From the IMG/VR virus record IMGVR_UViG_3300005613_000019, positions 33,992 to 97,991 of that record: DNA of 64,000 nt; one strand, given 5' to 3'. The translations under genes and the position numbers were made by a program. Every line of letters starts with the position of its first letter. Within the stretch, counting starts at the first letter, position 1. This document shows positions 5,239-56,474 of the stretch, in pieces. Source of the stretch: a virus. Below the pieces are notes generated by a model. The model worked only from the letters and a program-made list of their open reading frames with translations. It made no database searches and was not told the origin of the DNA.

Positions 5239-5239
5239 A

Positions 5240-6151: not shown

Positions 6152-6272
6152 ATACGTATGCTTATCCTTTTTGACAAACTATTTATAAGTATAATATAAA
6201 ATGTGTCGGGGGATTAAAGTTTAATTTTTAAATTTTAACTAAAGGTAGGAAAAAACTTATAACACATTTGAA

Positions 6273-6704: not shown

Positions 6705-6823
6705 AGTTACACCTCCATAAATATTTCGCTCGAATTTCGAGCTTCGTTAAGATCCTTAATATAAGGATCATGGTTGATGAATATCATCAAAAATTATAAT
6801 ACTACAACTTAGTGTCGGAATTT

Positions 6824-7141: not shown

Positions 7142-7316
7142 TGAAATCCCTCCCTACCTCAAAAGATATTACTTCCCTCAACATACCAAACATAATAAAA
7201 ACATCTATTAACCCTAAGACAACCTCAGAATTATAAACTATAAAATCGTCATCGCCCATAATAGAGTCTACTAATAAAAAACTTTTATCCCTTATCTTTA
7301 AACTTAAGTTCTCCAC
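7119..7316 (-). CDS. Hypothetical protein
   Basis: 65 residues, starting MENLSLKIRDKSF. No domain recognised. Its 3' end holds the ribosome binding site of the next gene, so both are likely expressed together. Confidence 0.5.
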   Translation of the reverse strand: MENLSLKIRDKSFLLVDSIMGDDDFIVYNSEVVLGLIDVFIMFGMLREVISFEVGRDFSEVLRSE

Positions 7317-7321
7317 AATAC

Positions 7322-7420
7322 TTATTTATCTTTCTTATCCTTCTTCTTAGAATCTTTATCTTCCTTTAAATCCTTTACCGGACCTAAAACCTTTCCATCA
7401 CCTTTACCAGTCTTCTTCAT
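7322..7420 (-). CDS. Very small Lys-rich protein
   Basis: 32 residues (MKKTGKGDGKVLGPVKDLKE...), about half Lys/Asp. The ATG at 7418-7420 overlaps the TGA of the Mu F-like gene as ATGA (7417-7420), which supports real translation by re-initiation. Function unknown; a small DNA- or head-associated basic protein is possible. Confidence 0.55.
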   Translation of the reverse strand: MKKTGKGDGKVLGPVKDLKEDKDSKKKDKKDK

Positions 7421-8502: not shown

Positions 8503-8507
8503 CTTAG

Positions 8508-10361: not shown

Positions 10362-10364
10362 GGT

Positions 10365-10862
10365 TTAGTCTTTCTCAATCATTAAATATATAGAATCAAA
10401 TGACTCTTTAGTCATATTATCAGGAAGGTTCAATTCATTTATTGAAAATAAATGCAATTGAACCTCTGAGTCCCCTATATAATAAAACTCATACCATTTT
10501 TGTTTCTTAAGTTTTACTTCAGCTAACAAGTCTTTATAGTCTTCATTAAAATTTAACAATAATGTTTTGACTTCATCTTCAAAACCCTGCATTATTTGTA
10601 ACTTACCGTTAGCCCTCACATAAGAACCATCTACTTTTACTAAATAAGAGTCTAATAATTCGAGTCTTTTTTGATCATACTGTAAAGATTCTTCAGTAGG
10701 CTCAAGAAAACTATCTCGAATTTGAATCAAATTCTCTACCTCTTTTTTAAGAATTTCAATGTTTTGCTGTATTTTTATATGAACAGCAACAGCGCACTTT
10801 ATTTGTGCGCTGTTGCTGGAAGTGAGGAATTCCAATAATTTTTGAACTTCAAAGTTTTTCAC
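10365..10862 (-). CDS. Hypothetical coiled-coil protein upstream of portal
   Basis: 165 residues, largely helical (KIQQNIEILKKEVENLIQIR; VKTLLLNFNEDYKDLLAEVK). The stop lies 3 bases from the portal start, so it is co-translated with the portal. The C-terminal third has mixed character. No family recognised. A GC-rich perfect 14-bp hairpin (10784-10818) falls near its start and could affect translation. Confidence 0.6.
   Translation of the reverse strand: MKNFEVQKLLEFLTSSNSAQIKCAVAVHIKIQQNIEILKKEVENLIQIRDSFLEPTEESLQYDQKRLELLDSYLVKVDGSYVRANGKLQIMQGFEDEVKTLLLNFNEDYKDLLAEVKLKKQKWYEFYYIGDSEVQLHLFSINELNLPDNMTKESFDSIYLMIEKD
10784..10818. repeat. Hairpin, 14-bp GC-rich arms, 7-nt loop
   Basis: Perfect inverted repeat near the start of the gene at 10365-10862. 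Confidence 0.9.
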
Positions 10863-10930
10863 AGTTTAGGTCTCCTTTTTATTAAAATACCCCTTTTAGT
10901 TCAAAATTAGAGGATTATAATATCCCAGTA

Positions 10931-15376: not shown

Positions 15377-15412
15377 ATTGTATAGCTCCTATAAATCCAC
15401 ACTATCCAAAAA

Positions 15413-16804
15413 TTAAACTATTTCTATAAACAGAGTATTCGGATTAAAATATATTATTGCTGAGGTAATAGCAAAACCTATAGGCTGCATATAATCACCA
15501 ATGCCGGATGGTACAGTTTGAGTAATTCCACCGGCAGTTGTACTAGCGTACAACGTGCCTCCAGGTGTCCAAGCCCAGGAGTCATCTCTCATGACTCCTT
15601 GAAACAGTAAAAGCTTATTAGCGCCAGCACCTGTATCAATAGCCAAAGCCCTACAAGGCATTGTACCTACTGCATCAGCATCACAAGCTTGATAAGTTCC
15701 TGCATTATCCAAATATAAAGCATATCCAAAAGTTGCAGCAGGTCCTACTGTTCCTTCAATTTCAATACCATGCGCAGTAGTATCCGCTAAATTTGTAGAT
15801 AGTGGTATATTAATTCCAGTCCCGTTATATAAAAATATTGATCCAGCAGAAACCAAGCTTATATCACTACCATCCGACTCAATTTCAATAGAATCACCTC
15901 CCAATGAAACAGCACCATCAGAATCTAAATTAAGACTAGTAGTAGTTGCTACGTCTACAGTTGCTGAGTCAACGTCTATTGTTGCACCAGCGTTAGAAAT
16001 ATCAATATCATTAGCACCGTCCCCTGTAAGGGCCAGAATACCTCCGTCAGATTCTACAGTGACAGACGCCCCACCTATAGAGGTGGCGGCGTCTGAATCC
16101 ATTGTAAGGGCTCCAGCTGCGTCCAGATCGAGGGTAGACGTTGTTTCGATGTCTACGACATCGGAATCAACGTCGATTGTTGCACCAGCGTTAGAAATGT
16201 CAATATCGTTAGCACCGTCCCCAGTGATAGCCAGGATACCACCGTCAGCTTCTACAGTGACAGACGCTCCACCTATAGAGGTGGCGGCGTCTGAATCCAC
16301 TGTAAGGGCTCCAGTAGAGTCTAAGTCAAGCGTACCTGAAGTAACCAAATCAATATTTCTAAGGGCAGTTTCTAAGTCAATTGCAGCGTCTGCTTTTCGA
16401 ATAAGTTGAAAATATTCTGCAGACGTATCAATTAATTTAAATCCGTAAGTTGTCCCTGTAACTTGTTCAATATCAATTGTAAAGTCTTGAGTACCTACTA
16501 ATGTATAATATAGACCGCTAGATGAAGGAACAACTCCAGACGAATCAATATATTTCCATTGTCCTATTTGATTTGAAGTAAAAACAGTTCCATCAAGTTT
16601 AGCAATTATCTCACTTGAATCTACCAGATTGCACAGTGTATCAATGAATAATATATCATGTTGAATGTCTGATAAATCTATGTTTACTGTTGTATTTTTA
16701 AGTACGACTACATTATAGCCCTCATCTCCTTCAATAGATAAAGATTTAGGTGTACCCAAAGTATGCGTGTTATTTATAAGAGTTACCGTATGTGATACTG
16801 TCAT
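15413..16804 (-). CDS. Fibre-like protein with beta-repeat core
   Basis: 463 residues. An N-terminal domain (about 1-100) resembles that of the protein at 31492-32871. Residues about 160-300 are near-perfect repeats (SDAATSIGGASVTVE, GDGANDIDISNAGATIDVDS) typical of a beta-helical shaft. The last 90 residues (TMPCRALAIDTG ... GDYMQPIGFA) are shared with the C-terminus of the protein at 19086-20525. Suggests a trimeric fibre or decoration protein with interchangeable end domains. Confidence 0.6.
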   Translation of the reverse strand: MTVSHTVTLINNTHTLGTPKSLSIEGDEGYNVVVLKNTTVNIDLSDIQHDILFIDTLCNLVDSSEIIAKLDGTVFTSNQIGQWKYIDSSGVVPSSSGLYYTLVGTQDFTIDIEQVTGTTYGFKLIDTSAEYFQLIRKADAAIDLETALRNIDLVTSGTLDLDSTGALTVDSDAATSIGGASVTVEADGGILAITGDGANDIDISNAGATIDVDSDVVDIETTSTLDLDAAGALTMDSDAATSIGGASVTVESDGGILALTGDGANDIDISNAGATIDVDSATVDVATTTSLNLDSDGAVSLGGDSIEIESDGSDISLVSAGSIFLYNGTGINIPLSTNLADTTAHGIEIEGTVGPAATFGYALYLDNAGTYQACDADAVGTMPCRALAIDTGAGANKLLLFQGVMRDDSWAWTPGGTLYASTTAGGITQTVPSGIGDYMQPIGFAITSAIIYFNPNTLFIEIV

Positions 16805-44439: not shown

Positions 44440-44637
44440 ATGAAGAATTTAAAAAAAGAAGTAAGGGATAAGGTTGTGGATCAGGTTTGGGTTCAGATTG
44501 GGGATCATTTTATGGATCTGGTTTGGTGGCAGGTTAAGGAGCAACTTTGGGGGCCGATTTGGGATCATGTTAGGTGGCAGGTTTTGGATTGTGTTAAGGA
44601 GCATATTTGGGATCAACTAAAGCAGGATTTAAAATGA
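44440..44637 (+). CDS. xxQV tetrapeptide-repeat protein, plus array copy 1
   Basis: 65 residues. Leader MKNLKKEVRDKVVDQV, then a 4-residue repeat with Val (or Ile/Leu) every fourth position, often preceded by Gln, and Trp frequent at the variable sites (WWQVKEQLWGPIWDHV). The 12-bp DNA period is visible. TGA overlaps the ATG of copy 2 (ATGA, 44634-44637). No known family is claimed; likely an amphipathic helix with a Val/Trp stripe. Confidence 0.65.
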   Translation: MKNLKKEVRDKVVDQVWVQIGDHFMDLVWWQVKEQLWGPIWDHVRWQVLDCVKEHIWDQLKQDLK

Positions 44638-44807
44638 AGAATTTAAAAAAAGAAATAAGGGATAAGGTTGTGGATCAGGTTTGGGTTCAGATTGGGGATC
44701 ATGTTAGGTTTCATGTTACGGATCTGGTTTGGTGGCAGGTTAAGGAGCAGGTTTGGCGTCAGGTCGGCCAAGTCCTCGGGGATCAACTAAAGGATGATTT
44801 AAAATGA
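44634..44807 (+). CDS. xxQV tetrapeptide-repeat protein, plus array copy 2
   Basis: 57 residues. Leader identical to copy 4 for 20 codons (MKNLKKEIRDKVVDQVWVQI), then shorter and diverged repeats (VRFHVTDLVWWQV). ATGA overlaps at both ends show translational coupling along the array. Confidence 0.65.
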   Translation: MKNLKKEIRDKVVDQVWVQIGDHVRFHVTDLVWWQVKEQVWRQVGQVLGDQLKDDLK

Positions 44808-44977
44808 AGAATCTAAAAAAAGAAATAAAAGATCAAGTTTGGGATAAGACTAGGGAGCAGGTTTTTGAGCAGGTTTGTTATCCGGTTAAGGAATATGTTT
44901 GGGATCAGACTTGTGGGACGGTTTGTAGGGAGGTTAGGTGGCGGGTTAGGGAGCAACTAAAGAATAATTTCAGATGA
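44804..44977 (+). CDS. xxQV tetrapeptide-repeat protein, plus array copy 3
   Basis: 57 residues, MKNLKKEIKDQVWDKTREQV followed by more degenerate repeats with Cys and Thr (EQVCYPVKEYVWDQTCGTV). Overlaps both neighbours by ATGA. The most diverged plus-strand copy. Confidence 0.65.
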   Translation: MKNLKKEIKDQVWDKTREQVFEQVCYPVKEYVWDQTCGTVCREVRWRVREQLKNNFR

Positions 44978-45162
44978 AGAATTTAAAAAAAGAAATAAGG
45001 GATAAGGTTGTGGATCAGGTTTGGGTTCAGATTGAGGATCATGTTACGGATCTGGTTAGGTGGCAGGTTAAGGAGCAACTTTGGGGGCTGATTTGGGATC
45101 ATGTTAGGTGGCAGGTTTTGTGGCATGTCTGGTTTAAACTAGAAGATCAACTAAAGGAGTGA
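44974..45162 (+). CDS. xxQV tetrapeptide-repeat protein, plus array copy 4
   Basis: 62 residues. Starts as copy 2 and continues as copy 1 (WWQVKEQLWG-type block), so it looks like a product of recombination between copies. Last of the plus array, followed by a separate RBS for the next gene. Confidence 0.65.
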   Translation: MKNLKKEIRDKVVDQVWVQIEDHVTDLVRWQVKEQLWGLIWDHVRWQVLWHVWFKLEDQLKE

Positions 45163-45169
45163 TTATTAA

Positions 45170-45418
45170 ATGAAAACAAATAAATTTAATAATATAACTG
45201 AGCTTGGTAATTACATTATTTTAAAAACGCTATCTAAAGCCTTATACGAAAAAAATATAATTGAAATAGAATTAAGATATGCTTTTATAGCTGAAGATCT
45301 GTTAGACCTGTCTGAAGATGATAAAACAGAGCTTCATCACGAAATGTTATCTATACGGGCTGAGATAACTAATGAATTTGAAGGGAGGGCGTTAGCCCTC
45401 ATTAAAAAGGAGGGATAA
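45170..45418 (+). CDS. Hypothetical helical protein
   Basis: 82 residues, all helical (LSKALYEKNIIEIELRYAFI), no motif. AAGGAG site for the next gene lies inside its end. Confidence 0.5.
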   Translation: MKTNKFNNITELGNYIILKTLSKALYEKNIIEIELRYAFIAEDLLDLSEDDKTELHHEMLSIRAEITNEFEGRALALIKKEG

Positions 45419-45802
45419 TTGAATTTGTTTTCATTTTTTAAAAAGAAACCTAAACGCTGTCTTGAACAAAGAATATTGATGCTTGAAGCAAGCATCAATA
45501 TTCTGGATGAATCTATTGTAGAGATTAGAAAACATCTTAAACAACTAGAAGACGATGTTCCAATTACTAAAGAATTTGCTGAGTTAATTAAAAATCAATT
45601 TTCTAGCATAGTTGATAACTTTTCAATTATTAAAGAAACGTCAGAATCTACAATACCTTCTATAAACTCACATAAGGAGGCTATAGAGTTATTGGCTGCC
45701 CAAACAGAAATGAACACTATGTTACTAATTCAGTTGACTAAATCTCTTTTAGATGGTAATATAATTACTGAGGACGATGTAAAACCTCAACAGTTAAATT
45801 AA
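45419..45802 (+). CDS. Coiled-coil protein
   Basis: 127 residues with a TTG start after AAGGAGGGATAA. Hydrophobic/basic start (NLFSFFKKKPKR) then long amphipathic helices. A perfect 16-bp hairpin (45470-45504) is inside. Function unknown. Confidence 0.5.
   Translation: MNLFSFFKKKPKRCLEQRILMLEASINILDESIVEIRKHLKQLEDDVPITKEFAELIKNQFSSIVDNFSIIKETSESTIPSINSHKEAIELLAAQTEMNTMLLIQLTKSLLDGNIITEDDVKPQQLN
45470..45504. repeat. Hairpin, 16-bp arms, 3-nt loop, intragenic
   Basis: Perfect inverted repeat in the coiled-coil gene at 45419. Confidence 0.9.
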
Positions 45803-45821
45803 AATCTAAGGAGTTTAAAAA

Positions 45822-46478
45822 ATGGATCGAAGATCGTATGAAGTTTATGTAAGTCTTAGTAGTATAGATAAAAAAGTAGCAGAAGATTTTTTATACAAAA
45901 CTTTACAATATCAAATACTCAGATTTATGATGGATGATATACGATCAATCCTCAATATAGATTCTAACGAATCTATATTGAGGGCAGTCAAGGAGGTAGC
46001 CAAACATCTTAATAAAGAACTTGACAAAACTAACCAGCTTGAGAGGTATACTCAAACTGGTGAAATTAGTAAAGCTTCTATAGATAAAGTTGTTAAAACT
46101 GTTGAAGAGGGTGTATCAGAAGAGAGGATGCCTAAAGAGGTGAAGACACCAGAATCTGGTGTCTTCACTTATAATGTTAAGAAGCCTTATGAGAGTAGTA
46201 AGATAAAGTATAAAGACGGTAAAGTTAAAAATAATAAAATATATAATATTAATAAAAATAGAAAAGATATTATAGATGAACTAGAGGACTTAGGTGTAGA
46301 ATATAGGATAAAAGATAGTACTCGTAGATTGCAGAGACGGCTAGATAGATTTAAAAGCAGGAGAAAAGAAGACAAAAAACCTGAAAAAGATAAAATAATA
46401 GAAGACTTCATTAATAATAAGAAATCTTACCATGTAGAATCGGAACATAAGAAAAACATAATAAGAGGGTGGAATTAA
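45822..46478 (+). CDS. Hypothetical basic protein
   Basis: 218 residues. N-terminal helical domain (1-90), then a very Lys/Arg-rich disordered C-terminal half (RRLQRRLDRFKSRRKEDKK), as in nucleic-acid binding tails. Ends one base before the radical SAM gene and is probably co-expressed with it. Hairpins at 45950 and 46140. Confidence 0.5.
   Translation: MDRRSYEVYVSLSSIDKKVAEDFLYKTLQYQILRFMMDDIRSILNIDSNESILRAVKEVAKHLNKELDKTNQLERYTQTGEISKASIDKVVKTVEEGVSEERMPKEVKTPESGVFTYNVKKPYESSKIKYKDGKVKNNKIYNINKNRKDIIDELEDLGVEYRIKDSTRRLQRRLDRFKSRRKEDKKPEKDKIIEDFINNKKSYHVESEHKKNIIRGWN
45950..45983. repeat. Hairpin, 15-bp arms, 4-nt loop, intragenic
   Basis: Perfect inverted repeat in the gene at 45822; a second at 46140-46168 (14-bp arms). 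Confidence 0.9.
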
Positions 46479-46479
46479 T

Positions 46480-47442
46480 ATGAGACTTGAAGACATAGGA
46501 TTTTATACGCTTTCAGATGATCGTGCTATTAATGTAAGCTTAAAAACTCCTTTATCTAGGTGTGAGTTAATATTAACTGATGCTTGTAATTTTAAATGTC
46601 CTTATTGTAGGGGCTTAAGATCTGATTGTAAGGGTACTATGCCTTTTGAAAAGGCATCGAGTGTTGTTAAATATTGGACAGATGAAAATTTAATTAATAT
46701 ACGATTTTCAGGAGGTGAGCCTACCTTATATAAGCGTTTATCTGATTTAGTTAGCCAGGCTAGAGACAATGGAGTTAAGAGGATTGCTGTATCTACTAAT
46801 GGGTCTGCAAACTGGAATAAATACAGTGAATTAATTGATGCGGGTGTTAATGACTTTTCAATTTCGTTAGATGGGTGCTGTGCTTCTGTAGGTGATATAA
46901 TGGCTGGAGGTATTTCTGGAGCCTGGGATAGGGTTATTGAAAATATCATGAAAATATCTTCTAAAACATATTGTTCTGTAGGTATGGTCTTTACAGAAGA
47001 TAACATACATGATTGTTTGAATTCTGTAAAGTTTGCAGATTCTTTAGGCGTATCTGATATTAGAGTTATTCCTAGTGCTCAATATAATAAGGCTTTAAAT
47101 GCTTTAGCTGAATTAGGAAAAGATTTTTTAACGAAATATCCTATTTTGAATTATCGTATTAATAATATTAAAGAGGGTAGGCATGTTAGAGGAATTCCTA
47201 AAGGAAATAAAGATAGATGTTGGTTAGCTTTAGATGATATGGCTATCTCTGGTAACTGGAATTTTCCTTGTATTATCCATCTACGTGAAGGTGGAAATCC
47301 TGTAGGTAAAATAGGACCTAATATGAGAGAAGAAAGATTGGCTTGGTTAAAAAGTCATGAACCTTGGAAAGATCCAATTTGTAAAAATAATTGTTTAGAC
47401 GTATGTATTGATCATAATAAAACTGCGTCGTTATATAAATGA
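46480..47442 (+). CDS. Radical SAM protein with extra C-terminal Cys cluster
   Basis: 320 residues. CNFKCPYC (Cys36, 40, 43) binds the catalytic 4Fe-4S cluster; SGGEPTL (77-83) is the AdoMet amino-group motif. The C-terminal region has DRCWLALDDMAISGNW, FPC and CKNNCLDVC, like a SPASM/twitch auxiliary cluster site. Such enzymes often modify peptides. Four small repeat peptides are encoded 1.3 kb upstream on the same strand. Substrate unknown. Confidence 0.8.
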   Translation: MRLEDIGFYTLSDDRAINVSLKTPLSRCELILTDACNFKCPYCRGLRSDCKGTMPFEKASSVVKYWTDENLINIRFSGGEPTLYKRLSDLVSQARDNGVKRIAVSTNGSANWNKYSELIDAGVNDFSISLDGCCASVGDIMAGGISGAWDRVIENIMKISSKTYCSVGMVFTEDNIHDCLNSVKFADSLGVSDIRVIPSAQYNKALNALAELGKDFLTKYPILNYRINNIKEGRHVRGIPKGNKDRCWLALDDMAISGNWNFPCIIHLREGGNPVGKIGPNMREERLAWLKSHEPWKDPICKNNCLDVCIDHNKTASLYK

Positions 47443-47463
47443 CTTTTAATGAAAGGATTTATT

Positions 47464-47598
47464 ATGTCAGAAGACCAAGAATTAAAACAAATTATTAAAG
47501 AATGTAAACAATCAGATTGGAGGTTTTTAATAGGAATCTTAGCTACGGTAGCTTTAGCAGTTGTTTGGGTTTATTTTTTATTAAATCCCATATTTTAA
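47464..47598 (+). CDS. Small single-TM protein
   Basis: 44 residues: polar N-terminus (MSEDQELKQIIKECKQSDWR) and one TM helix to the end. RBS AAAGGA 6 bases before the ATG. Tail overlaps the convergent gene at 47581 by 18 bases. Confidence 0.6.
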   Translation: MSEDQELKQIIKECKQSDWRFLIGILATVALAVVWVYFLLNPIF

Positions 47599-47853
47599 TA
47601 ATTTATCTAGTTCTTCTATTACACCTTTAATTGCATCTTGTCTAATTCCTACAGCCTCCCATAGCTCTTCTAGCTTCTCTAAATTAAAACGTGACCTGTA
47701 CCTCTTACTCGGCGGACATAAGTATACAGCAACCCGTGAACAGGCTTCTGGTAGATCTTTTTCAAGTATTTTGCTGAATGCTTCTTTGAGGTCTAGTAGA
47801 GAACGGCTTTGAATGGCTTGGTTTAACAAATTTATTTGTTTTTTATCAAGCAA
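47581..47853 (-). CDS. Hypothetical helical protein
   Basis: 90 residues, TTG start (47851-47853) after AAGGATTAAAAA. Helical with a CPPSKRYRSRFNLEKLEELW segment. Coupled to the YkgJ gene (3-base gap). Confidence 0.5.
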   Translation of the reverse strand: MLDKKQINLLNQAIQSRSLLDLKEAFSKILEKDLPEACSRVAVYLCPPSKRYRSRFNLEKLEELWEAVGIRQDAIKGVIEELDKLLKYGI

Positions 47854-47856
47854 TTT

Positions 47857-48177
47857 TTAATCCTTTTCTAATGACTTTGGTATTTCTAATATCTGATAAG
47901 GTTGTGCATGTTCTTCGAACACGCATCCCTTTAACACTATTACGTCTTCAAGATGCTCCGAATCAAACCTTCGACAAAGCTCAGGTTTGTGGTCATGTAT
48001 AGAACATTTATTATTTTTTAGGTGTGGACAAGGATTATATTGAATTAAAATGTTTTTCTCTGGCAATACTTCGAAACCTCTGGTTTCGAAGTATTGCTTT
48101 AGGTCTTTATCGAAGTCAGACGATATTTGAAATACTAGATATTTACAACATCTCCCACATTGTTTACACTTAAGCAT
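47857..48177 (-). CDS. YkgJ-family Cys-cluster protein
   Basis: 106 residues. CKQCGRCCKYLVF (4-16), CPHLKNNKCSIHDHKPELCRRF (split across 50-71) and GCVF form the Cys signature of the YkgJ/Fe-Zn chelating family. Biochemical role of the family is uncertain. Perfect 16-bp hairpin at 48063-48097. Confidence 0.75.
   Translation of the reverse strand: MLKCKQCGRCCKYLVFQISSDFDKDLKQYFETRGFEVLPEKNILIQYNPCPHLKNNKCSIHDHKPELCRRFDSEHLEDVIVLKGCVFEEHAQPYQILEIPKSLEKD
48063..48097. repeat. Hairpin, 16-bp arms, 3-nt loop, intragenic
   Basis: Perfect inverted repeat in the YkgJ-family gene. Confidence 0.9.
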
Positions 48178-48184
48178 CTAAAAA

Positions 48185-48910
48185 TTATTCAGGTATCTGA
48201 CAAGTTGTTAAAACATTACTAGGCAAAGCATCTATTAAATGAGTATGCAACTCAATTGCAGGAATAAGGAGCGAGACACCCTGGTGTCTCGCTCCTATGG
48301 CCTGATTAATACCTATAACTTTACCGTTCCTATCAATCGTAGGACCTCCACTCATGCCTGGATTTAAATGGTTGTCTACTTGTATCCATTTAAATTTATT
48401 TGAAGAATTTAGTTGGTATTCTGTTGAAGATACTACACCCTCTGTTAATGAAAAGTTAAAAGGCCAAGGATGTCCTAAACTTAAAATATGTTCTCCTCGT
48501 TCTACTTTTCTATAAAATTCAAACTCAAGAAAAGGTAAAGCATGTGCCTTTATTTTTAAAATTGCAACGTCAAATTCTGGTAAAAGTACCTTTTTAACAA
48601 CCTCATAAGAACTACCGTTTTCAAACGTTACTTTAATTAACGGATCTATCAACTTTAAAGTTGAAACTATAACATGTACATTAGTTAATAAATACCCGTC
48701 AGATGTAATTACAAAACCTGTACCTATTGAGTATAGTTCTGGTGTTCCTGTAACGGACTCAAATACCTTTATTAAGCAAACGGATTGCATAGCCTTTTCA
48801 GCTACTACGGTCCATTCGGGGTTTACATTTACTTGAGGCATCGGTAAACACCCGTTTAATGAGAAAAGTAAAAAAATTGATAGGATTAAGGATGAGTTTA
48901 AATATTTCAT
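48185..48910 (-). CDS. Lipoprotein trypsin-like serine protease (DegP/HtrA type)
   Basis: 241 residues. Lipobox LNGC (Cys21). Catalytic triad: TNVHV (His79), FDVAIL (Asp114), NPGMSGGP (Ser187), the HtrA order and motifs, without a PDZ domain. Predicted to be lipid-anchored in the host envelope. Role in infection is open: superinfection exclusion, degradation of envelope proteins or virion processing are guesses. Hairpin 48267-48296 inside. Confidence 0.8.
   Translation of the reverse strand: MKYLNSSLILSIFLLFSLNGCLPMPQVNVNPEWTVVAEKAMQSVCLIKVFESVTGTPELYSIGTGFVITSDGYLLTNVHVIVSTLKLIDPLIKVTFENGSSYEVVKKVLLPEFDVAILKIKAHALPFLEFEFYRKVERGEHILSLGHPWPFNFSLTEGVVSSTEYQLNSSNKFKWIQVDNHLNPGMSGGPTIDRNGKVIGINQAIGARHQGVSLLIPAIELHTHLIDALPSNVLTTCQIPE
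48267..48296. repeat. Hairpin, 14-bp arms, 2-nt spacer, intragenic
   Basis: Perfect GC-rich inverted repeat in the lipoprotein protease gene. Confidence 0.9.
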
Positions 48911-48985
48911 AAAAACTCCTTTTGCAGGTAATGTAAAAACATTATACTATAATATACGGAGTTTTTATTAAAGTAATAAATAAAT

Positions 48986-49288
48986 TTATAAGGATTTAAG
49001 TATATTTTTAATATCTTCATCTACTTTAGGGTCTTCTAACATATCATTTATTAGGTTTTTAGCACCCTCAAACTTAATTGATACGTTATTTATCGGTGGT
49101 TTGTCGAATTTAGCTTCTAGGGTTACTAGATTGATTGTAAGTTCAGTAGGGCTAAGATCTTTCATAGTTTCTATAGCCATTTTATAAGCTAACTCTTTTA
49201 AAGCTTTTTGATTTCCTAAAAATATAGACCATCTTCCTAAGAAAAATACTATTATAAAAATAATACATATAAATAGAGTATTAAACAT
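48986..49288 (-). CDS. Membrane-anchored hypothetical protein
   Basis: 100 residues, one N-terminal TM helix (about 3-24), then a helical domain. Starts 2 bases from the stop of the upstream gene. No family. Confidence 0.5.
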   Translation of the reverse strand: MFNTLFICIIFIIVFFLGRWSIFLGNQKALKELAYKMAIETMKDLSPTELTINLVTLEAKFDKPPINNVSIKFEGAKNLINDMLEDPKVDEDIKNILKSL

Positions 49289-49289
49289 A

Positions 49290-49490
49290 TTAGCTCCTTT
49301 TTTCTACGTCTTTAGGACACTCTGGGGGGTTTTCTGTTTTTTGATAGATAAGACCCGCTATAAAATAATCTCCATCCTTATATCTGTGTATTTCAGGTCT
49401 ATTATGTATATATCTAGCCGTCCAGACCCAATACCATCCAAAATCCTTTTTTTCTACTTTTTTGTTTTTTAAATACATAAAAGCTTTCAT
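49290..49490 (-). CDS. Hypothetical small aromatic protein
   Basis: 66 residues with FGWYWVWTARYIHNRPEIHR. Similar in style to the Trp-rich protein at 35261. ATG after AAAGGAATTAAT. Confidence 0.5.
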   Translation of the reverse strand: MKAFMYLKNKKVEKKDFGWYWVWTARYIHNRPEIHRYKDGDYFIAGLIYQKTENPPECPKDVEKRS

Positions 49491-49517
49491 TATTAATTCC
49501 TTTCTTTTTAAATTATA

Positions 49518-49976
49518 TTAGTCAGTTATAATTACTCTCTCTTTAGGCCAATAAGGTAAAATCTTCTCCATTCGGTTTTTCATTCTTTTTATAGATTTAA
49601 AAGGAACGCTATGCACGTTCCGTTGCATAGCGTTCTCTACACTACACTCACATCGAACTATATCAATGTCGTCTGTATGATTCATATAAATTTGAGCATA
49701 TCGAATATAAGGCGACATTTCATGGAGCCTTATATTCGTATTATCTACTATTAACAATCCTATAATAGGATTTTTTAAAGAGTTAATAAACTTTTTGTAA
49801 CAATATTTGTGAGCTTGATCTAGTTTAGATGGATCAAAATTATAATTACAATTAGTATCAATAAAAAAGTCATCTGCGGAGCAGATGACTTTTGCATAAC
49901 CACTCGTAGGCTCAAGTTTATAAATATACGTAGACTTACCCGATCCAGGGATGCCCCTCATAATTACAATTTTCAT
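49518..49976 (-). CDS. Polynucleotide kinase-like P-loop kinase
   Basis: 152 residues. GIPGSGKST (8-16), ICSADDFF, LDQAHKYC, VDNTNIR and RNVHSVP match the AAA_33/N4BP2-type kinase family, relatives of the T4 Pnk kinase domain. It likely phosphorylates 5' ends of RNA or DNA; no phosphatase domain. May work with the RNA ligase at 33528. Hairpins at 49604, 49702 and 49865. Confidence 0.75.
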   Translation of the reverse strand: MKIVIMRGIPGSGKSTYIYKLEPTSGYAKVICSADDFFIDTNCNYNFDPSKLDQAHKYCYKKFINSLKNPIIGLLIVDNTNIRLHEMSPYIRYAQIYMNHTDDIDIVRCECSVENAMQRNVHSVPFKSIKRMKNRMEKILPYWPKERVIITD

Positions 49977-50038
49977 ATTAATTCCTTTCTTTAAGTTACT
50001 CTACTATATTAAGATTAATTCCTATAGAAGTCAAGTAG

Positions 50039-50215
50039 CTATTTTAAAATATTATCTTTTAAGACTTGAAGAAGTGTAATATTCATGTGATCCCAAACTT
50101 GTATAAATACTTTATCGACAACGTAACCACATACTTTTAGTGAATATTTTGTTTTTATCGTTTCAACAATTTTATTTTTTTGGTTTAAAACTATATTCTT
50201 TTTTAAATTATTCAT
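50039..50215 (-). CDS. Diverged member of the xxQV family
   Basis: 58 residues. MNNLKKNIVLNQKNKIVETI resembles the MKNLKKE leader, and the end has FIQVWDHMNITLLQVLKDN. The repeat is otherwise worn. It is the last copy of the minus-strand group at 50-51 kb. Confidence 0.5.
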   Translation of the reverse strand: MNNLKKNIVLNQKNKIVETIKTKYSLKVCGYVVDKVFIQVWDHMNITLLQVLKDNILK

Positions 50216-50306
50216 ATGAAATTATTCTTTACTTAATCTTCTAAGTTAGACATAATCTCCCCCCAACCTGCCCCCCAACCTGCCACAAAATCTGATCCAA
50301 AACCTG

Positions 50307-50504
50307 TCACCTAACATGATCCCAAATCGGCCCCCAAAGTTGTTCCTTAACCTGCCACAAAATCTGCCACAAAATCTGATCCAAAACCTGTCCCCCAATC
50401 TGATTCCAAACCTGCCGCCTAACCTGCTCCTTAACCTGCTCCTTAACCTGATCCTTAACCTGATCCTCAATCTGATCTCTTATCTCTTCTTTTAAATTCT
50501 TCAT
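50307..50504 (-). CDS. xxQV-repeat protein, truncated by in-frame TGA
   Basis: 65 residues, MKNLKEEIRDQIEDQVKDQV..., ending where a TGA (50307-50309) replaces the TGG seen at the same place in plus copy 1 (DHVR/WQV). The repeat frame stays open beyond it for about 21 codons and then runs into a one-base frameshift before a remnant of the usual tail. Probably a decaying copy. Confidence 0.55.
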   Translation of the reverse strand: MKNLKEEIRDQIEDQVKDQVKEQVKEQVRRQVWNQIGGQVLDQILWQILWQVKEQLWGPIWDHVR

Positions 50505-50510
50505 CTGAAA

Positions 50511-50735
50511 TTATCCTTTAGTTGATTTTTTTAGATTCCCACTAACTTGCCGTAAAGCCTGATACCTAACCTGCTCCCAAACCTGCCGTAAAACCTGATA
50601 CCTAACCTGCCCCCAAACCTGCCGTAAAACCTGATACCTAACCTGCCCCCAAACCTGCCGTAAAACCTGATACCTAACCTGCCCCCAAACCTGCCGTAAA
50701 ACCTGATCTCTTATCTCTTCTTTTAAATTTTTCAT
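50511..50735 (-). CDS. xxQV-repeat protein with perfect 12-residue supra-repeats
   Basis: 74 residues. After MKNLKEEIRDQV the 12-residue block LRQVWGQVRYQV is repeated four times; the 36-bp DNA units are nearly identical, which points to recent expansion by unequal exchange. Ends SGNLKKSTKG. Confidence 0.65.
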   Translation of the reverse strand: MKNLKEEIRDQVLRQVWGQVRYQVLRQVWGQVRYQVLRQVWGQVRYQVLRQVWEQVRYQALRQVSGNLKKSTKG

Positions 50736-50801
50736 CTGAAATTATCCTTTAGTTGATTTTTTTAGATTCCCACTAACTTGCCGTAAAGCCTGATACCTAA
50801 C

Positions 50802-50966
50802 CTACTCCCAAATCTGCCGCCAAACCTGCTCCCAAACCTGCCGTAAAGCCTGATACCTAACCTGCTCCCAAACCTGCTCCCAAACCTGCCGTAAAACCTG
50901 ATACCTAACCTGCCCCCAAACCTGCCGTAAAACCTGATCTCTTATCTCTTCTTTTAAATTTTTCAT
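50802..50966 (-). CDS. xxQV-repeat protein with in-frame TAG
   Basis: 54 residues from the ATG at 50964-50966 to a TAG at 50802. The TAG stands at a Gln (CAG) position of the repeat; past it the frame continues VRYQALRQVSGNLKKSTKG to a TAA at 50742, giving exactly the same total length (225 bp) as the gene at 50511. A recent nonsense change or a suppressible stop. Confidence 0.55.
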   Translation of the reverse strand: MKNLKEEIRDQVLRQVWGQVRYQVLRQVWEQVWEQVRYQALRQVWEQVWRQIWE

Positions 50967-50967
50967 T

Positions 50968-51285
50968 TTATTTAGACTCTTTAAGAAGTCTGACCTTATT
51001 CTTAAGGTCAGACTCTCTATGATAAGCTTTTTCATAATCCATTAAATATTGATAAACTACAGGATTGTTATTTTTCATATTTTCTAAATGTCTCTCATCC
51101 CTTTTATACATTTTAGGATGACTTACATATCCGTAACTTGCCTCAGATACTGTTAATTTAAAAATTAAAAACTTTATTTTAAGATTTAATTTATAATATT
51201 CTTCTGCAATAGATACATGCTCTAAATTATTAATGTCAAATTTAACTCCGCATTTTGTAAAAATATCAGTATTTATGTTTTTCAC
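50968..51285 (-). CDS. Hypothetical helical protein
   Basis: 105 residues, helical, Lys rich (LDYEKAYHRESDLKNKVRLL). Its stop is next to the start of the xxQV gene at 50966. No family. Confidence 0.5.
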   Translation of the reverse strand: MKNINTDIFTKCGVKFDINNLEHVSIAEEYYKLNLKIKFLIFKLTVSEASYGYVSHPKMYKRDERHLENMKNNNPVVYQYLMDYEKAYHRESDLKNKVRLLKESK

Positions 51286-51287
51286 TT

Positions 51288-51494
51288 TTACTCCTCTTCA
51301 TTAATGTTCCAAGTTATAAAACCATCCTCTTCTTCTTCTTCTTCTTCTTCAAGTTCATATTTATAATTTTCAATATAAATACGAACTCTTTCTTTAATTT
51401 CTTCTTTGTCTTCAGTTTCTTCATGTATAAAAGGATATTGAAAAAGACCTTCCTCTCCTTCAATTTCGTCAAATAAATTAAATATCTTTACCAT
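51288..51494 (-). CDS. Acidic small protein with Glu run
   Basis: 68 residues with an eight-Glu tract encoded by a GAA/GAG triplet repeat (about 51333-51353), prone to length change. ATG after AAGGAGGAATCAGC. Function unknown; DNA mimicry is conceivable. Confidence 0.5.
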   Translation of the reverse strand: MVKIFNLFDEIEGEEGLFQYPFIHEETEDKEEIKERVRIYIENYKYELEEEEEEEEDGFITWNINEEE

Positions 51495-51512
51495 GCTGAT
51501 TCCTCCTTAATA

Positions 51513-51902
51513 TTAAATGTATATTCCTACCGTTTTAGCTAAATAATAAATTTGTAAATGATTTATGTTAATTACTAGATATAAAAAGTTAAGTAAAAAT
51601 ATAAAAATATTAAGACGTTTTTTAATTTTATAATTACTCTTTGAATAACTATCATATAAAATAATAGTGAAACCTATAAGTATACTTATCTTAGTAATTA
51701 TAAAAAGATTTGGGTCTAGTTTCAGAAGGTAATCCATTAAGGGATTACCTTCTGAAACTACATAATACCCAGTATCTAATTTTAAAATAATGTTTGATAA
51801 AACTGTAAAATAATAGGTAAATCCAGTGTCGATTAAATTTAAAATATTTAAAACTACTAACTGAATACTTAAACACTTTTTAGTATAAAATTTATTTAGC
51901 AC
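51513..51902 (-). CDS. DUF5658-like membrane protein
   Basis: 129 residues with about four TM helices. ILNLIDTGFTYYF and GNPLMDYLL followed by ITKISILIG match the DxxxT, NPxM and K motifs of the DUF5658 family. Function unknown. It holds the longest perfect stem in the window, 19 bp (51717-51760). Confidence 0.6.
   Translation of the reverse strand: MLNKFYTKKCLSIQLVVLNILNLIDTGFTYYFTVLSNIILKLDTGYYVVSEGNPLMDYLLKLDPNLFIITKISILIGFTIILYDSYSKSNYKIKKRLNIFIFLLNFLYLVININHLQIYYLAKTVGIYI
51717..51760. repeat. Hairpin, 19-bp arms, 6-nt loop, intragenic
   Basis: Longest perfect stem seen, inside the DUF5658-like gene. Confidence 0.9.
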
Positions 51903-51960
51903 CTATAAATCCTCCTTTAACTTTTATATTACATAAATCTGTTGGATATGTCAATAAAAA

Positions 51961-52503
51961 TTAAAAAGGCTTTTTAAAAGATTTGTAATGAATAGCTCCA
52001 CCACATGTTATACAACTATGTATCGAAGCTTCACACGCTAATTGTACAGATGTTTTAGCGTCTAAACCTAAAGACTTACAGGTGTATAAAGCTCCCATTG
52101 CAACCTCCTCACCTGTCCCTGAAGCATAAAACCCAGTCTCTATTGTATGAATCTGAAAATCATCCTCTATGGTAAAAATACCGTGTGGAGAAACTATTAT
52201 AATAGAAATGTTTGGATAATTATCTTCATTTCGGGGGTTAACCAAAAATTCGTAGGATCTTACTATATTAATTAATTCATCTCTAAATTTACGTAAGTCA
52301 TTTAAATCTCTGATTTCGTTAGGAAAACATTCATATTCTTCTAATACGTCACCTACCCTGTAAGAACCGGCATTGCTTAATGTGTAATTTTTTTTAGAAA
52401 TTAACTTAGATCCAAATTCAATTTTTAAGTTGTCGTAAGATCCTAAACTATCCGTTGCAATGCATACTTGATTTGTATCTTCTGATGCTGCTATTATTGT
52501 CAT
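51961..52503 (-). CDS. Proteasome/HslV-like Ntn hydrolase
   Basis: 180 residues. Begins MTIIAASED with a Thr at position 2 as the expected N-terminal nucleophile; ATDSLGSYD, SNAGSYRVGD and YASGTGEEVAMGALY follow the proteasome beta/HslV pattern. Such single-subunit peptidases occur in some large phages. Whether it pairs with a host unfoldase is unknown. Confidence 0.7.
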   Translation of the reverse strand: MTIIAASEDTNQVCIATDSLGSYDNLKIEFGSKLISKKNYTLSNAGSYRVGDVLEEYECFPNEIRDLNDLRKFRDELINIVRSYEFLVNPRNEDNYPNISIIIVSPHGIFTIEDDFQIHTIETGFYASGTGEEVAMGALYTCKSLGLDAKTSVQLACEASIHSCITCGGAIHYKSFKKPF

Positions 52504-52672
52504 CTATAACCTCCTAGTTATATAAACTTTATAAATATGATGTTTAACTAATACTTTTGTTAATTTAAAATTTAAACCTTAAAATCTGAATAATAGAAGC
52601 CTTTACCTTGATGTTTAGTAATATAAACAGAGTAAAGTTATAGACTTCGTCTGCAAATTTGTTATGCTTATC

Positions 52673-52708
52673 GAAATATACCTCCAGCTTAAGCTGGAGG
52701 TATATTTC
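52673..52708. repeat. 36-bp perfect palindrome
   Basis: Perfect inverted repeat without spacer, intergenic, 15 bases past the stop of the xxQV gene at 52723. In RNA it would form a stable hairpin and may end transcription. Confidence 0.9.
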
Positions 52709-52722
52709 TTATTTTAAATTCT

Positions 52723-52908
52723 TTATTTGAAATTATCCTTTAATTTATTTATAATAAGCCATCTAGCCTGACTCCAAACTTGCCATTTAACCTGACCCCA
52801 AACCTGATCCCAAATATTATCTCTGATATTTCTTTTAACCTGCCACCAAATTATCTCTTCAACCTGCTCTAAAATGTAATCTCTTATTTCATATTTTAAA
52901 TTCTTCAT
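52723..52908 (-). CDS. xxQV-family protein
   Basis: 61 residues, MKNLKYEIRDYILEQVEEII then WWQVKRNIRDNIWDQVWGQV. Start overlaps the stop of the serine protease gene (52905-52908, ATGA). A somewhat diverged copy. Confidence 0.6.
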   Translation of the reverse strand: MKNLKYEIRDYILEQVEEIIWWQVKRNIRDNIWDQVWGQVKWQVWSQARWLIINKLKDNFK

Positions 52909-53480
52909 TCTAAAACAATCCTTTTAATTACTTTAAAACTTATATGCCTGGACCCTGAAAGGCTGTGTATACCTACTACACAACTTCTAGATCCTTCGTT
53001 TTTAAAAATAGGAACACCTGAATATCCAGGCATTGTCCTAATGCTGGATATTATAAAATCCCCCCTTATGTTATTTATCTTACCTAACTTTTTATAATAT
53101 TTTCCATTCTTGTAAAGTATTAAATATACTGAATCACCATAATTGACGGTATTACATAATTTTAACGGCTTATTGAATTCATTAACCCTTAATATTACTA
53201 AGTCTTTATCGTAAGATGTCTTTTCAATATTAACTACAGTAATAATATTACCCCTACTTATTATTACTATAGGTTTACCCTTGTCCCTGTTCTTAATTAT
53301 ATGATAAGAAGTTAATATTAAATCCTTATCTATATAAAAACCCTCACCTTTGAAAGACCCTCCACCTTCCCTGGAAACAATTACCTCAACTATAGAATAA
53401 CCATCGTAACTATATACACTATTAGAAATTATTAAACATATAGTAAAAATTAAAACTCTTGAATACACCTTAATACTCAT
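52905..53480 (-). CDS. Exported trypsin-like serine protease
   Basis: 191 residues. Signal peptide (1-24). Triad LTSYHII (His60), DKDLVIL (Asp93) and MPGYSGVPIF (Ser154). Compact, no PDZ. Not closely similar to the lipoprotein protease at 48185. Its ATG overlaps the upstream stop as TAATG. Probably acts outside the cytoplasm. Confidence 0.7.
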   Translation of the reverse strand: MSIKVYSRVLIFTICLIISNSVYSYDGYSIVEVIVSREGGGSFKGEGFYIDKDLILTSYHIIKNRDKGKPIVIISRGNIITVVNIEKTSYDKDLVILRVNEFNKPLKLCNTVNYGDSVYLILYKNGKYYKKLGKINNIRGDFIISSIRTMPGYSGVPIFKNEGSRSCVVGIHSLSGSRHISFKVIKRIVLE

Positions 53481-53659
53481 TACTTCTTATGAATTATATA
53501 ATATTCATTATCTTTTATTAAACCGTTTCTAATTAAATAAGCATCAATGTCAAGCTCCGTCTTGACATTGATGCTTCCTCTCCTTAAAACTAAACGCTTT
53601 ATAAAGCGTTTAGTTTTATTTTTATAAATATCTACTAAAAATAAAATATCAGAAGACAT
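53480..53659 (-). CDS. Small protein carrying two large palindromes
   Basis: 59 residues (MSSDILFLVDIYKNKTKRFI...). TAATG overlap with the protease gene and a GAGGAG site support it. Two hairpins fill over a third of it: 53539-53576 (16-bp arms) and 53585-53618 (34-bp perfect palindrome). Confidence 0.6.
   Translation of the reverse strand: MSSDILFLVDIYKNKTKRFIKRLVLRRGSINVKTELDIDAYLIRNGLIKDNEYYIIHKK
53539..53618. repeat. Two long palindromes in one 59-codon gene
   Basis: 53539-53576 (16-bp arms, 6-nt loop) and 53585-53618 (17-bp arms, no spacer), both perfect. Confidence 0.9.
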
Positions 53660-53712
53660 AATATTTCTCCTCTAAAACTTGATTCCTTATTTCTTTTTTT
53701 TAAATTCTTCAT
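53660..53712 (-). pseudogene. Vestigial xxQV-family leader
   Basis: ATG at 53710-53712 overlaps the upstream copy (ATGA). The leader MKNLKK is followed by a one-base insertion in an A run; restoring it would give the EIRNQVLEE-type leader, which then stops in the next gene's RBS. A truncated copy whose end now serves as the 5' region of the gene at 53659. Confidence 0.5.
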
Positions 53713-53930
53713 CTGAAATTATTATTTATTTGATCCTCTAATTTAGACCAAACCTGCCACCAAACCTGCCACTCAACCTGCCAAAAAACATGATCCTTAA
53801 CCTGCCACCAAACCTGCCACTCAACCTGCCAAAAAACATGATCCTTAACCTGACACAAAACCTGCCACCAAACCTCTCCCTTAACCTGATCCCTAACTTG
53901 ATCCCTTATCTCTTCTTTTAAATTCTTCAT
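53709..53930 (-). CDS. xxQV-repeat protein
   Basis: 73 residues. MKNLKEEIRDQVRDQVKGEV, then two copies of a WWQVKDHVFWQVEWQV block (60-bp DNA repeat), then SKLEDQINNNFR. ATGA overlap with the upstream copy. Confidence 0.65.
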   Translation of the reverse strand: MKNLKEEIRDQVRDQVKGEVWWQVLCQVKDHVFWQVEWQVWWQVKDHVFWQVEWQVWWQVWSKLEDQINNNFR

Positions 53931-54124
53931 CTGAAATTATTATTTATTTGATCTTCTAAGTTAGACATAATCTCCCCCCTAACTTGCCAAAAAACCTGCC
54001 ACAAAACCTCCCCCCTAACTTGCTCCAAAACCTGATCCCTAACCTGCTTCAAAACCTGATCCCAAAGCTGATCCCTAACCTGATCCCTAACTTGATCCCT
54101 TATCTCTTCTTTTAAATTCTTCAT
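53927..54124 (-). CDS. xxQV-repeat protein
   Basis: 65 residues, MKNLKEEIRDQVRDQVRDQL... ending MSNLEDQINNNFR, the same tail as the next gene. Start overlaps the readthrough stop of the upstream copy as ATGA. Confidence 0.65.
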   Translation of the reverse strand: MKNLKEEIRDQVRDQVRDQLWDQVLKQVRDQVLEQVRGEVLWQVFWQVRGEIMSNLEDQINNNFR

Positions 54125-54183
54125 CCTAAATTATCCTTTATTTGATCCTTTAATTTAGATCTAACCTCCGGATTGACCTGCCT

Positions 54184-54414
54184 CTAAACCTGCCACCCAA
54201 CCTGCTCCTTAATATTATCCCAAACCTTCCACCCTACCTTCCACCAAGTCTGCCCCCAAACCTGCCTCTTAACCTGCCACCCAACCTTCTCCTCAACATG
54301 ATCCTCAACCTGCTCTTCAATATTATCCCAAACCTGCCACCCAACCTTCTCCCTAACATGCTTCCAAACCTGCCACCTAACTTGATCCCTTATCTCTTCT
54401 TTTAAATTCTTCAT
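54184..54414 (-). CDS. xxQV-repeat protein with in-frame TAG
   Basis: 76 residues to a TAG at 54184. Beyond it the frame stays open (RQVNPEVRSKLKDQIKDN) to a TGA at 54121 that forms the usual ATGA overlap with the next gene, so the full gene was 54121-54414. First gene after the promoter at 54519-54547. Confidence 0.6.
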   Translation of the reverse strand: MKNLKEEIRDQVRWQVWKHVREKVGWQVWDNIEEQVEDHVEEKVGWQVKRQVWGQTWWKVGWKVWDNIKEQVGWQV

Positions 54415-54547: not shown

Positions 54548-55203
54548 GACCTTTTATATCTTTATTTGTTGATAACTCGGGAAATGACTACTCTAACTAA
54601 TTCTAGCTCATTAAACCTCTAATAAGTACTAACAAGTAAAGAGGGACCCAAACTACGTTTGGGTCCCTCTACATCTATAAAGGGTGAGACACATCTTGAT
54701 AATATCTTTTGTAATATTTTTTTATATGACATTTTTGATGAAATATTGATGTGATTTTAATATTAAGGCTCTATATCGCTACGCGATATAGAGCCTCTTT
54801 GGTAGGAGCATTACTCAAAAAAGTAAACCTGTATTTTAAAAAATGGTCTTTTTTAAAAGAGGGTAAAAGCAACCCCCATACCCAGTGGGGTCCCCTCGTT
54901 GGACGGACCCCCCTATACCCGATATATCGTAGTCCAATCTATATCATACGGAATCCGTATGATATAGATTGACTCCTGATATATATTCCGTATGATATAG
55001 ATTGACTCCTGATATATATTCCGTATGATATAGATTGACTCCTGATATATATTCCGTATGATATAGATTGACTCCTGATATATAGGATTATAAGCTAGTC
55101 TAAAGCTAGTCTAAAGCACTAAACGTCTTATCTATACTCTGATACTCAATTAGGTTTAAACTGGATTGTAACGAATGCTAGGTAGGATTGAATTGAATGA
55201 AGG
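54548..55203. other. Non-coding hairpin and repeat region
   Basis: No gene supported. Contains perfect hairpins at 54640-54670 (14 bp), 54766-54796 (14 bp) and 54931-54975 (17 bp plus a bulged extension), then four 33-bp tandem repeats and an AGCTAGTCTAA direct repeat near 55090. Confidence 0.7.
54952..55083. repeat. Four tandem 33-bp repeats
   Basis: Units begin at 54952, 54985, 55018 and 55051; the last three are identical and the first differs by one base. The first unit also forms the right arm of a 17-bp hairpin. Iteron-like arrangement. Confidence 0.95.
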
Positions 55204-55688: not shown

Positions 55689-56474
55689 TTATCTGGAAAA
55701 AACTTTTCCTTCATGGTCATACAGATCAATCGAACCCAAGTCTTTTGCAATTTGTGTCAACCCTTTTCCAAAATCGTTCCATTTACCATCCCAAAATCCT
55801 GCTCCGTGATTATTTTGAGTCAACCATAGGTCATAACCAAACTGTTCTTCAGTATTGCCGGTTTTATACATCGCCATGGCGATGTAAAACCGGTTTTGTT
55901 CAATGCAATCCAGAACGGATTCAGTCAACGTTGACTTTGACTCGGAGTCAAAGTCAACGTCTGGATCGTAATCGTCGTCAAGATTCTCGGTCATGTTCCC
56001 GTCTTCATCGTCTTTTGGAGTACTCCAAAAAGCACATTCGAAATAAGCGCTCAAGAGTTCATCGATATTAATTTCATCGTCACCTTCAAAATCAAGAATG
56101 CTCAACTTGTCTTTCAGGTGACATTCTTCCAAAGATTCAATCCAATCGTAAAATTCTTTTGGATTAACCGTAAAAACTTCACCGTTAAACGTTTCGGTTA
56201 GGGTATCATATCCTTCTTTTTCGAGGGTTTCATATCTTTCATCCTGTTCTTCACTTGTCATTTGACCCATGAGATGATCTTCTAGACATTCAAATGCGGC
56301 TTCCAAAGCTTTGTATTCGGATCGATCTGATATTGCAATAGCAGCGCCGGGAACATATCCTGATCCATCATGAACAACAGCAACACAAACAGTGTCTTCA
56401 AACAGATCAACAAACTGATCATCGTTAACCGTTAGCAAGCAAACATCTTTGAGCATATTTTTCATATTTTCCAT
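55689..56474 (-). CDS. Acidic hypothetical protein
   Basis: 261 residues, strongly acidic (DDDYDPDVDFDSES). C-terminal part YDLWLTQNNHGAGFWDGKWN resembles short phage early proteins of unknown role. GC content is higher than in the late block. Hairpins at 55858 and 55928. Confidence 0.55.
   Translation of the reverse strand: MENMKNMLKDVCLLTVNDDQFVDLFEDTVCVAVVHDGSGYVPGAAIAISDRSEYKALEAAFECLEDHLMGQMTSEEQDERYETLEKEGYDTLTETFNGEVFTVNPKEFYDWIESLEECHLKDKLSILDFEGDDEINIDELLSAYFECAFWSTPKDDEDGNMTENLDDDYDPDVDFDSESKSTLTESVLDCIEQNRFYIAMAMYKTGNTEEQFGYDLWLTQNNHGAGFWDGKWNDFGKGLTQIAKDLGSIDLYDHEGKVFSR

Follow-up and report, generated by a model that had tools for sequence, protein, structure and literature searches.

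What are the short repeat proteins that IMG/VR virus record IMGVR_UViG_3300005613_000019 encodes in many copies, and what kind of gene could they derive from? The window analysed here is a 64,000-base stretch, bases 33,992-97,991 of this 97,991-base record, which is classed as linear. It contains 12 open reading frames (ORFs) built of four-residue repeats (tetrads), four on the plus strand and eight on the minus strand, which encode proteins of 54-76 residues. All 12 were found where a first-pass annotation, made from the DNA letters alone, had placed them, and tblastn over the whole 98-kb record recovers 10-12 of them. Our answer is tentative and held at somewhat under even chances: the window genes would be free-standing, multiplied copies of an array module that is internal to proteins of the Pfam family DUF6745 (PF20530), and would act as changing helical rods.

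The window copies share a leader, MKNLK(K/E)E(I/V)RD or a variant of it, followed by a body of x1-x2-Q-V blocks, each encoded by a 12-bp unit. The start is MKNL in 11 of the 12 and MNNL in the other. A hydrophobic residue is found at index 3 modulo 4 from the start methionine in all 12 copies, a phasing matched by residue shuffles at p ≤ 0.0005 in each of them, and the hydrophobicity spectrum, computed over 11 copies, has its maximum at exactly 90 degrees per residue (power of 1980, compared with 83 at 100 degrees). The leader and the strict four-residue period described in the first-pass annotation therefore hold, and the supra-repeats of 36 and 60 bp that it reported are present together with others of 48 and 84 bp. 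Gaps in the protein alignment fall in four-residue steps across nearly the whole repeat body. The leader itself consists of two or three tetrads (MKNL-KEEI-RDQV), so that the start codon is in register with the repeat.

Searches of Pfam and PHROGs with the window copies, and of NCBIfam, PADLOC and PDB with representatives, gave chance-level matches only. The initial impression that no characterised family resembles these genes stands in so far as no named family covers the window copies; however, the kind of gene is widespread in uncultured phages and its array is also internal to DUF6745. No relative was found at the protein level with one copy or with the 12-copy alignment as query, and the exact MKNLK leader pattern has no other match, so the window subfamily is known from this contig only. 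The viral contigs of IMG/VR were scanned with a degenerate pattern of four Q-V tetrads with two tryptophans, and the figures given below refer to the matches listed. Two architectures were found among these matches: DUF6745 proteins with an internal array, and short free-standing arrays. At least 169 distinct free arrays come from 56 loci, with a median length of 65 residues and MKSV as the commonest leader; 96 of the 169 are in tetrad phase 3 and 74 end in an ATGA overlap. Whole records gave 33 tblastn matches in 40.8 kb, 24 in 102.6 kb and 70 in 369 kb. Direct reading of the 369-kb viral contig G007 (locus L252) shows about 13 kb (2609-15955) of consecutive tetrad-array genes, mostly ATGA-linked. 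Furthermore, a leader-anchored pattern matched 36 stretches in viral contigs, and leader-anchored patterns gave no match in 84,980 bacterial and archaeal genomes (two scans).

A consensus built solely from other phages matches 10 places in the window, with E values down to 5e-9. The window copies and the arrays of other phages have in common an M-K-x-[V/L] start in tetrad phase and a QLKxDL-type tail, such as DQLKEDLENE in other phages and DQLKDDLK in the window. As a partial check for purifying selection on the leader, M-K-[S/N]-[V/L] recurs across independent contigs in tetrad phase, and exact MKNLK(K/E)E is found in this contig only. Another record with free arrays, G003 (158,520 bp), holds about 24 of them and one DUF6745 and may be complete and circular; its ends may overlap by about 121 bp, judged by coordinate offsets against the near-identical G004.

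In DUF6745 proteins with an internal array, for example gp38 of Mycobacterium phage prophiGD102-1 (PF20530 at E = 6e-29), an N-terminal and a C-terminal part flank the tetrapeptide array. Clustering of the ORFs neighbouring free arrays gave one dominant family, found in 23 of 62 independent locus groups, which is an array-less DUF6745 of about 286 residues (PF20530 at E = 7e-31) whose array is gone exactly where other DUF6745 proteins carry it. Of the 23 whole records that hold free arrays, 18 have this array-less form, placed within or beside the arrays. A reciprocal scan was queried with DUF6745 peptides and not with arrays, because an array-based search would be circular, and loci were classed after 90% dereplication. 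Free arrays were present in the fetched flanks of 23 of 33 groups without an internal array of QV/QL/SL type and of none of the 12 groups with one (Fisher p = 2.2e-5 at 90% dereplication and 1.5e-4 at 70%). Where a locus has both, the DUF6745 gene and its nearest free array are separated by a median of 70 bp and never by more than 501 bp. Ten array-less groups had no free arrays, and two of these, L233 and L241, hold internal arrays of AVxx and ATxx chemistry, so the separation of cis and trans is if anything cleaner than these counts. A DUF6745 relative was found in only 11 of 50,697 phage records and its co-occurrence with arrays is therefore not background; among these named phage records no relative of the array genes besides DUF6745 was found. 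In G007, DUF6745 is split into one gene for the N-part (103 residues) and another for the C-part (334 residues); about 10 free arrays lie between the two, and more than 30 follow.

Three arrangements are observed: cis, with N-part, array and C-part in one protein; trans, with an array-less DUF6745 and a cluster of free arrays, often ATGA-coupled; and shattered, in which N-part, arrays and C-part are each encoded by genes of their own, with the order unchanged. In the scan made, the cis and trans forms excluded each other. This exclusivity and the split DUF6745 of G007 suggest that the free arrays are multiplied copies of the DUF6745 array, provided in trans. The same loci could be explained by a reservoir, in which the free arrays are silent donor cassettes that recombine into the internal array of the DUF6745 gene and do not act as proteins in trans. 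Identity over the 12-bp units would permit such recombination, the copies are chimeric and the arrays lie within 0.5 kb of DUF6745; however, the DUF6745 of these genomes has no internal array to alter, and start codons, stop codons and ATGA coupling, all of which the free copies possess, would be superfluous in silent cassettes. We consider a reservoir very improbable.

Other features were seen around DUF6745. A DUF6745 protein of locus L158 (4356-5633) has internal SSLx tetrads instead of QVxx. A second recurring neighbour, a protein of 112-119 residues, accompanies DUF6745 and free arrays in 18 of the 62 groups (L029, L035, L088, L102, L157 and others); it shows the motifs AAQGD...HSETGHxH...DTHE...RQREYxxEGxR, of which HSETGHxH, DTHE and QREYxxEG are invariant, and corresponds to phrog_27831. 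A fold search with the DUF6745 model gave no PDB match at E ≤ 0.001, and its viral matches were solely DUF6745 or unnamed proteins.

The window copies, and the relics of leaders found beside them, are as follows.

44440-44637, plus strand: tetrad-repeat copy 1, 65 residues; ATGA overlap with copy 2.
44634-44807, plus strand: tetrad-repeat copy 2, 57 residues; ATGA overlap at both ends.
44804-44977, plus strand: tetrad-repeat copy 3, 57 residues; ATGA overlap at both ends.
44974-45162, plus strand: tetrad-repeat copy 4, 62 residues; 95% identity to copy 1 over the first 152 nt.
50039-50215, minus strand: strongly diverged copy, 58 residues, 21% GC; leader retained, repeat body weak.
50307-50504, minus strand: copy of 65 residues; TGA inside the repeat body, with repeat and tail relics that run on to 50213.
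50511-50735, minus strand: copy of 74 residues; 36-bp supra-repeat, usual tail NQLKDNFR out of frame.
50802-50966, minus strand: copy of 54 residues; TAG in the repeat body, relic tail to 50733, also frameshifted.
52723-52908, minus strand: copy of 61 residues; its start overlaps the stop of the trypsin-like protease gene 52905-53480.
53709-53930, minus strand: copy of 73 residues with 11 Trp; 48-bp supra-repeat, AlphaFold2 single helix, ATGA overlap with the next copy.
53927-54124, minus strand: copy of 65 residues; ATGA overlap.
54184-54414, minus strand: copy of 76 residues with 11 Trp; early TAG, relic tail ...RSKLKDQIKDNLG that runs on to 54122.
About 53640-53710, minus strand: leader relic, MKNLKK then a frameshift, with EIRNQVLEEKYYVF in another frame.
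About 52695-52735, minus strand: leader relic without a start codon (ATA AAG AAT TTA AAA TAA), adjoining a terminator-like hairpin at 52673-52708.

The copies at 50307, 50802 and 54184 thus terminate at an in-frame TGA or TAG within the repeat body, and the C-terminus is frameshifted in 50511 and also in 50802 past its TAG; in every broken copy a recognisable tail or repeat relic extends to the next start codon. Translational coupling through ATGA, which had been claimed for the copies in general, is found at four copy-copy junctions (44634, 44804, 44974 and 53927-53930) and applies to only part of the window copies. A further ATGA junction joins a copy to the protease gene (52905-52908), and at 50504 and 50735 the overlap is kept in the DNA and the upstream ORF now stops early. 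Copies 1 and 4, which share 95% identity over 152 nt, are 66-74% identical to the intervening copies. Codon usage in the window copies is strongly biased, with a CAG ratio of 80:21 compared with 73:174 in the remaining phage and GTT for 106 of 118 Val codons, as would be expected if the units were copied from one another.

The mode of change is seen in five related contigs which are 99.7-100% identical over more than 10 kb of overlap and differ in their array genes: one has genes of 45 and 58 residues, another has genes of 61, 33 and 58 residues, and a third shows an in-frame fusion of 66 residues. Since such fusions can arise in short-read assembly, array novelty was tested by 24-mers; one sibling has 145 array 24-mers absent from all other siblings and none that is novel in about 10 kb of flank. 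The sibling phages in this way support change by in-register recombination, in line with the rapid change by unequal exchange that had been proposed for the window copies. Free arrays change through gain, loss and in-frame reshuffling of 12-bp units.

Codon entropy in the arrays reaches its maximum at the first and second positions of the x1 and x2 codons and its minimum at Q and V, including their synonymous sites. The share of GTC among Val codons has a median of 0.83 in arrays compared with 0.21 in neighbour genes (32 groups, p = 1e-6). For Gln, 25 of the 32 groups use almost a single codon, which is either CAA or CAG depending on the phage. The longest array DNA shared between phages has a median of 16 nt, compared with 17 nt in unit-shuffled controls, so recent whole-array exchange between phages does not obviously explain the common GTC. 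Multi-frame coding was also rejected: other frames are open in many phages, yet they are not conserved, because in the window GTT followed by AGG gives TAG in another frame.

These patterns bear on the possibility that the arrays are mostly selfish or neutral DNA, whose 12-bp units expand and contract by slippage and unequal recombination and whose frames stay open since a 12-bp unit is divisible by three and contains few stops. Such an origin is consistent with third codon positions homogenised within each phage, with the broken copies of the window and with neighbouring frames that are often open too. It is highly unlikely in our judgement, since the start methionine lies in one tetrad phase in 12 of 12 window copies and in phase 3 in 96 of the 169 free arrays counted above, M-K-x-V leaders, related tails and ATGA overlaps recur in unrelated phages, x1 and x2 change at amino-acid-changing sites whereas Q and V do not, and the pairing with DUF6745 in cis or trans is strict.

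The structure of the copy at 53709-53930 was predicted with AlphaFold2 from a 33-row alignment as a single 71-residue helix, with a mean predicted local distance difference test score (pLDDT) of 92. The helix with a strict four-residue period suggested in the first-pass annotation agrees with this prediction and with the period of exactly 4. On an alpha helix, by arithmetic at 100 degrees per residue, a period of 4.0 would make the Val stripe wind once per 36 residues. A canonical heptad or hendecad coiled coil (period of 3.5 or 3.67) was rejected, as the spectrum peak corresponds to 90 degrees, or 4.0 residues.

The window phage encodes a large terminase, a portal and a major head protein. 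Its closest terminase relatives (47-58% identity, one of them a 212-kb contig) showed no arrays, so the array module is accessory; furthermore, the window arrays are located in an accessory region. Both points bear on a structural or scaffold role in the particle or in an intracellular assembly (length rulers, filaments or a replication compartment), where copy number would set dose and geometry. The rod-like prediction, the very high copy number and lengths that vary in four-residue steps would suit such a role, but presence is patchy, even the 212-kb relative being without arrays, and the window arrays lie away from the head and tail genes. We regard it as quite unlikely.

If the window genes are free-standing DUF6745 arrays, each copy would form a rod, mostly helical, with a hydrophobic stripe that spirals around it. 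Free rods may associate among themselves and with a DUF6745 partner in phages that have one, and many copies would supply a fast-changing set of rod lengths and surfaces, in which x1 and x2 vary and Q and V do not. The most likely role, by analogy with mycobacteriophage Tweety, would be the tuning of contact with a host or prophage defence protein. In Tweety, mutants that escape defence have an altered tetrapeptide-repeat count in gp54, a protein proposed to lock Phrann gp29/gp30, the defence proteins of a prophage (PMC9262239); the gp54 gene is described in PMC2884959. A bolder proposal, doubtful although still worth serious thought, is that a two-part DUF6745 scaffold and up to dozens of interchangeable, recombination-diversified helical rods form a combinatorial recognition or evasion system, in which recombination between 12-bp repeats, with neither reverse transcriptase nor recombinase, would keep altering the binding surfaces. 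If arrays do diversify to follow host or prophage defences, they would represent a large overlooked class of phage diversity generation by repeat recombination alone. The array genes are named in no library searched, though single phages spend up to about 13 kb on them, and the cis/trans relation offers a first genetic handle on DUF6745, a Pfam family without assigned function.

Several observations weigh against the window genes being DUF6745 arrays that act as rods. Neither DUF6745 (N-part and DUF6745 alignments) nor the HSETGH partner gene was found in the 98-kb record of the window at E ≤ 1, and two other records, G002 and G013, also hold arrays without DUF6745. The usual C-terminus is lost in 4 of the 12 window copies by nonsense or frameshift, which fits decay as well as diversification. 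The helix prediction is tempered by the tendency of AlphaFold2 toward helices for such repeats, and the array inside a DUF6745 protein was modelled at pLDDT of about 33, with both ends at good confidence. Array differences between metagenome contigs can be assembly artefacts, and only one sibling is clearly novel in its array sequence. The fixed synonymous sites (GTC for Val) suggest a constraint at the DNA or RNA level, which the rod proposal does not cover. Finally, Tweety gp54 was rejected as a homologue, with no shared sequence and no DUF6745 domains, and serves as a comparison of how such proteins may work.

The records with arrays and no detectable DUF6745, that of the window phage included, also favour an alternative in which the copies are stand-alone small proteins, self-assembling or membrane-active, for example in superinfection exclusion or host takeover; they would need no partner, and DUF6745 would simply be co-located in the accessory region. 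The Val/Trp stripe predicted to wind round the helix would suit such proteins. Nevertheless, co-location does not explain the exclusivity of cis and free arrays, the median distance of 70 bp or the arrays between the halves of a split DUF6745. Moreover, Q, D, N and R at three of four positions make a near-neutral polar protein without a hydrophobic transmembrane stretch, and no result obtained here favours membranes. Stand-alone proteins therefore seem unlikely to us.

Under the favoured reading of the window genes as DUF6745 arrays, the partner of the window phage might be encoded on a missing part of the genome, or be absent, in which case the arrays would work alone or decay. The terminase of the window phage shares about 34% identity with its counterpart in Virus Rctr197k, whose partial genome measures 197 kb; given this match, the 98-kb record is probably a fragment and thus incomplete.

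The array region of the window also contains two genes for trypsin-like serine proteases, at 48185-48910 (a match of PHROGs phrog_9683) and at 52905-53480 (judged from its sequence, and overlapping the start of an array copy), and an HslV/proteasome-subunit-like protein (phrog_1040) is encoded between the array clusters at 51961-52503. In addition, the window shows 62 perfect inverted repeats, whose arms are 12-19 bp long and whose loops span 0-8 nt; none occurred in any of five first-order Markov controls. Nearly all differ in sequence and many lie within ORFs; examples are found at 45470-45504, 46140-46168, 48063-48097, 48267-48296, 49865-49893, 51717-51760, 53539-53576 and 55928-55960. At about 54935-55085, a unit of about 34 bp with ATTCCGTATGATATAGATTGACTCCTGATATAT is present in four tandem copies, beginning at a 37-bp inverted repeat.

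No paper on the repeat strings or on DUF6745 was found in the open-licence literature. The YTV repeat (PF07639) is short like that of the window copies, but it matched a single copy at 20.8 bits, below the cut-off of 21, most likely through low complexity. Repeat matches in plasmids were also set aside: those of Lactococcus and Streptomyces are antisense to, or mostly outside, annotated genes, and that of Enterococcus lies inside an unrelated hypothetical protein. Tweety gp54 resembles the window arrays in its 12-bp, four-residue repeats, in G, W or Q at the first variable position, in the rapid change of repeat number and in being accessory and presumably non-essential; it differs in having AAxx instead of Q-V and in being a single protein of 374 residues that has N- and C-parts of its own.

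DUF6745 proteins with an internal array share with the window proteins a Q before a branched or aliphatic residue and W, R, G, D or A at the variable positions, and the four-residue array of the cis proteins, which lies outside the Pfam model itself, is present in the window copies. Unlike DUF6745, the window proteins are multi-copy, have 54-76 residues and contain neither the N-part nor the PF20530 C-part: the 10 copies scanned gave no PF20530 match, and the N-terminal LTxEQ...KW..GLST...SP part was not found in the whole 98-kb record at E ≤ 1. As for the free arrays of other uncultured phages, an array-less DUF6745 within 0.5 kb is typical of them (the 23 of 33 groups given above) but not universal, and none was found in the window record. 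Most of them have MKSV as leader and CAA/GTC as codons, in contrast with MKNLK(K/E)EI and CAG/GTT in the window. The MKSV-type arrays and the window copies are nevertheless alike in length, leader phase, tail, ATGA overlaps, multi-copy clusters and chimeric copies.

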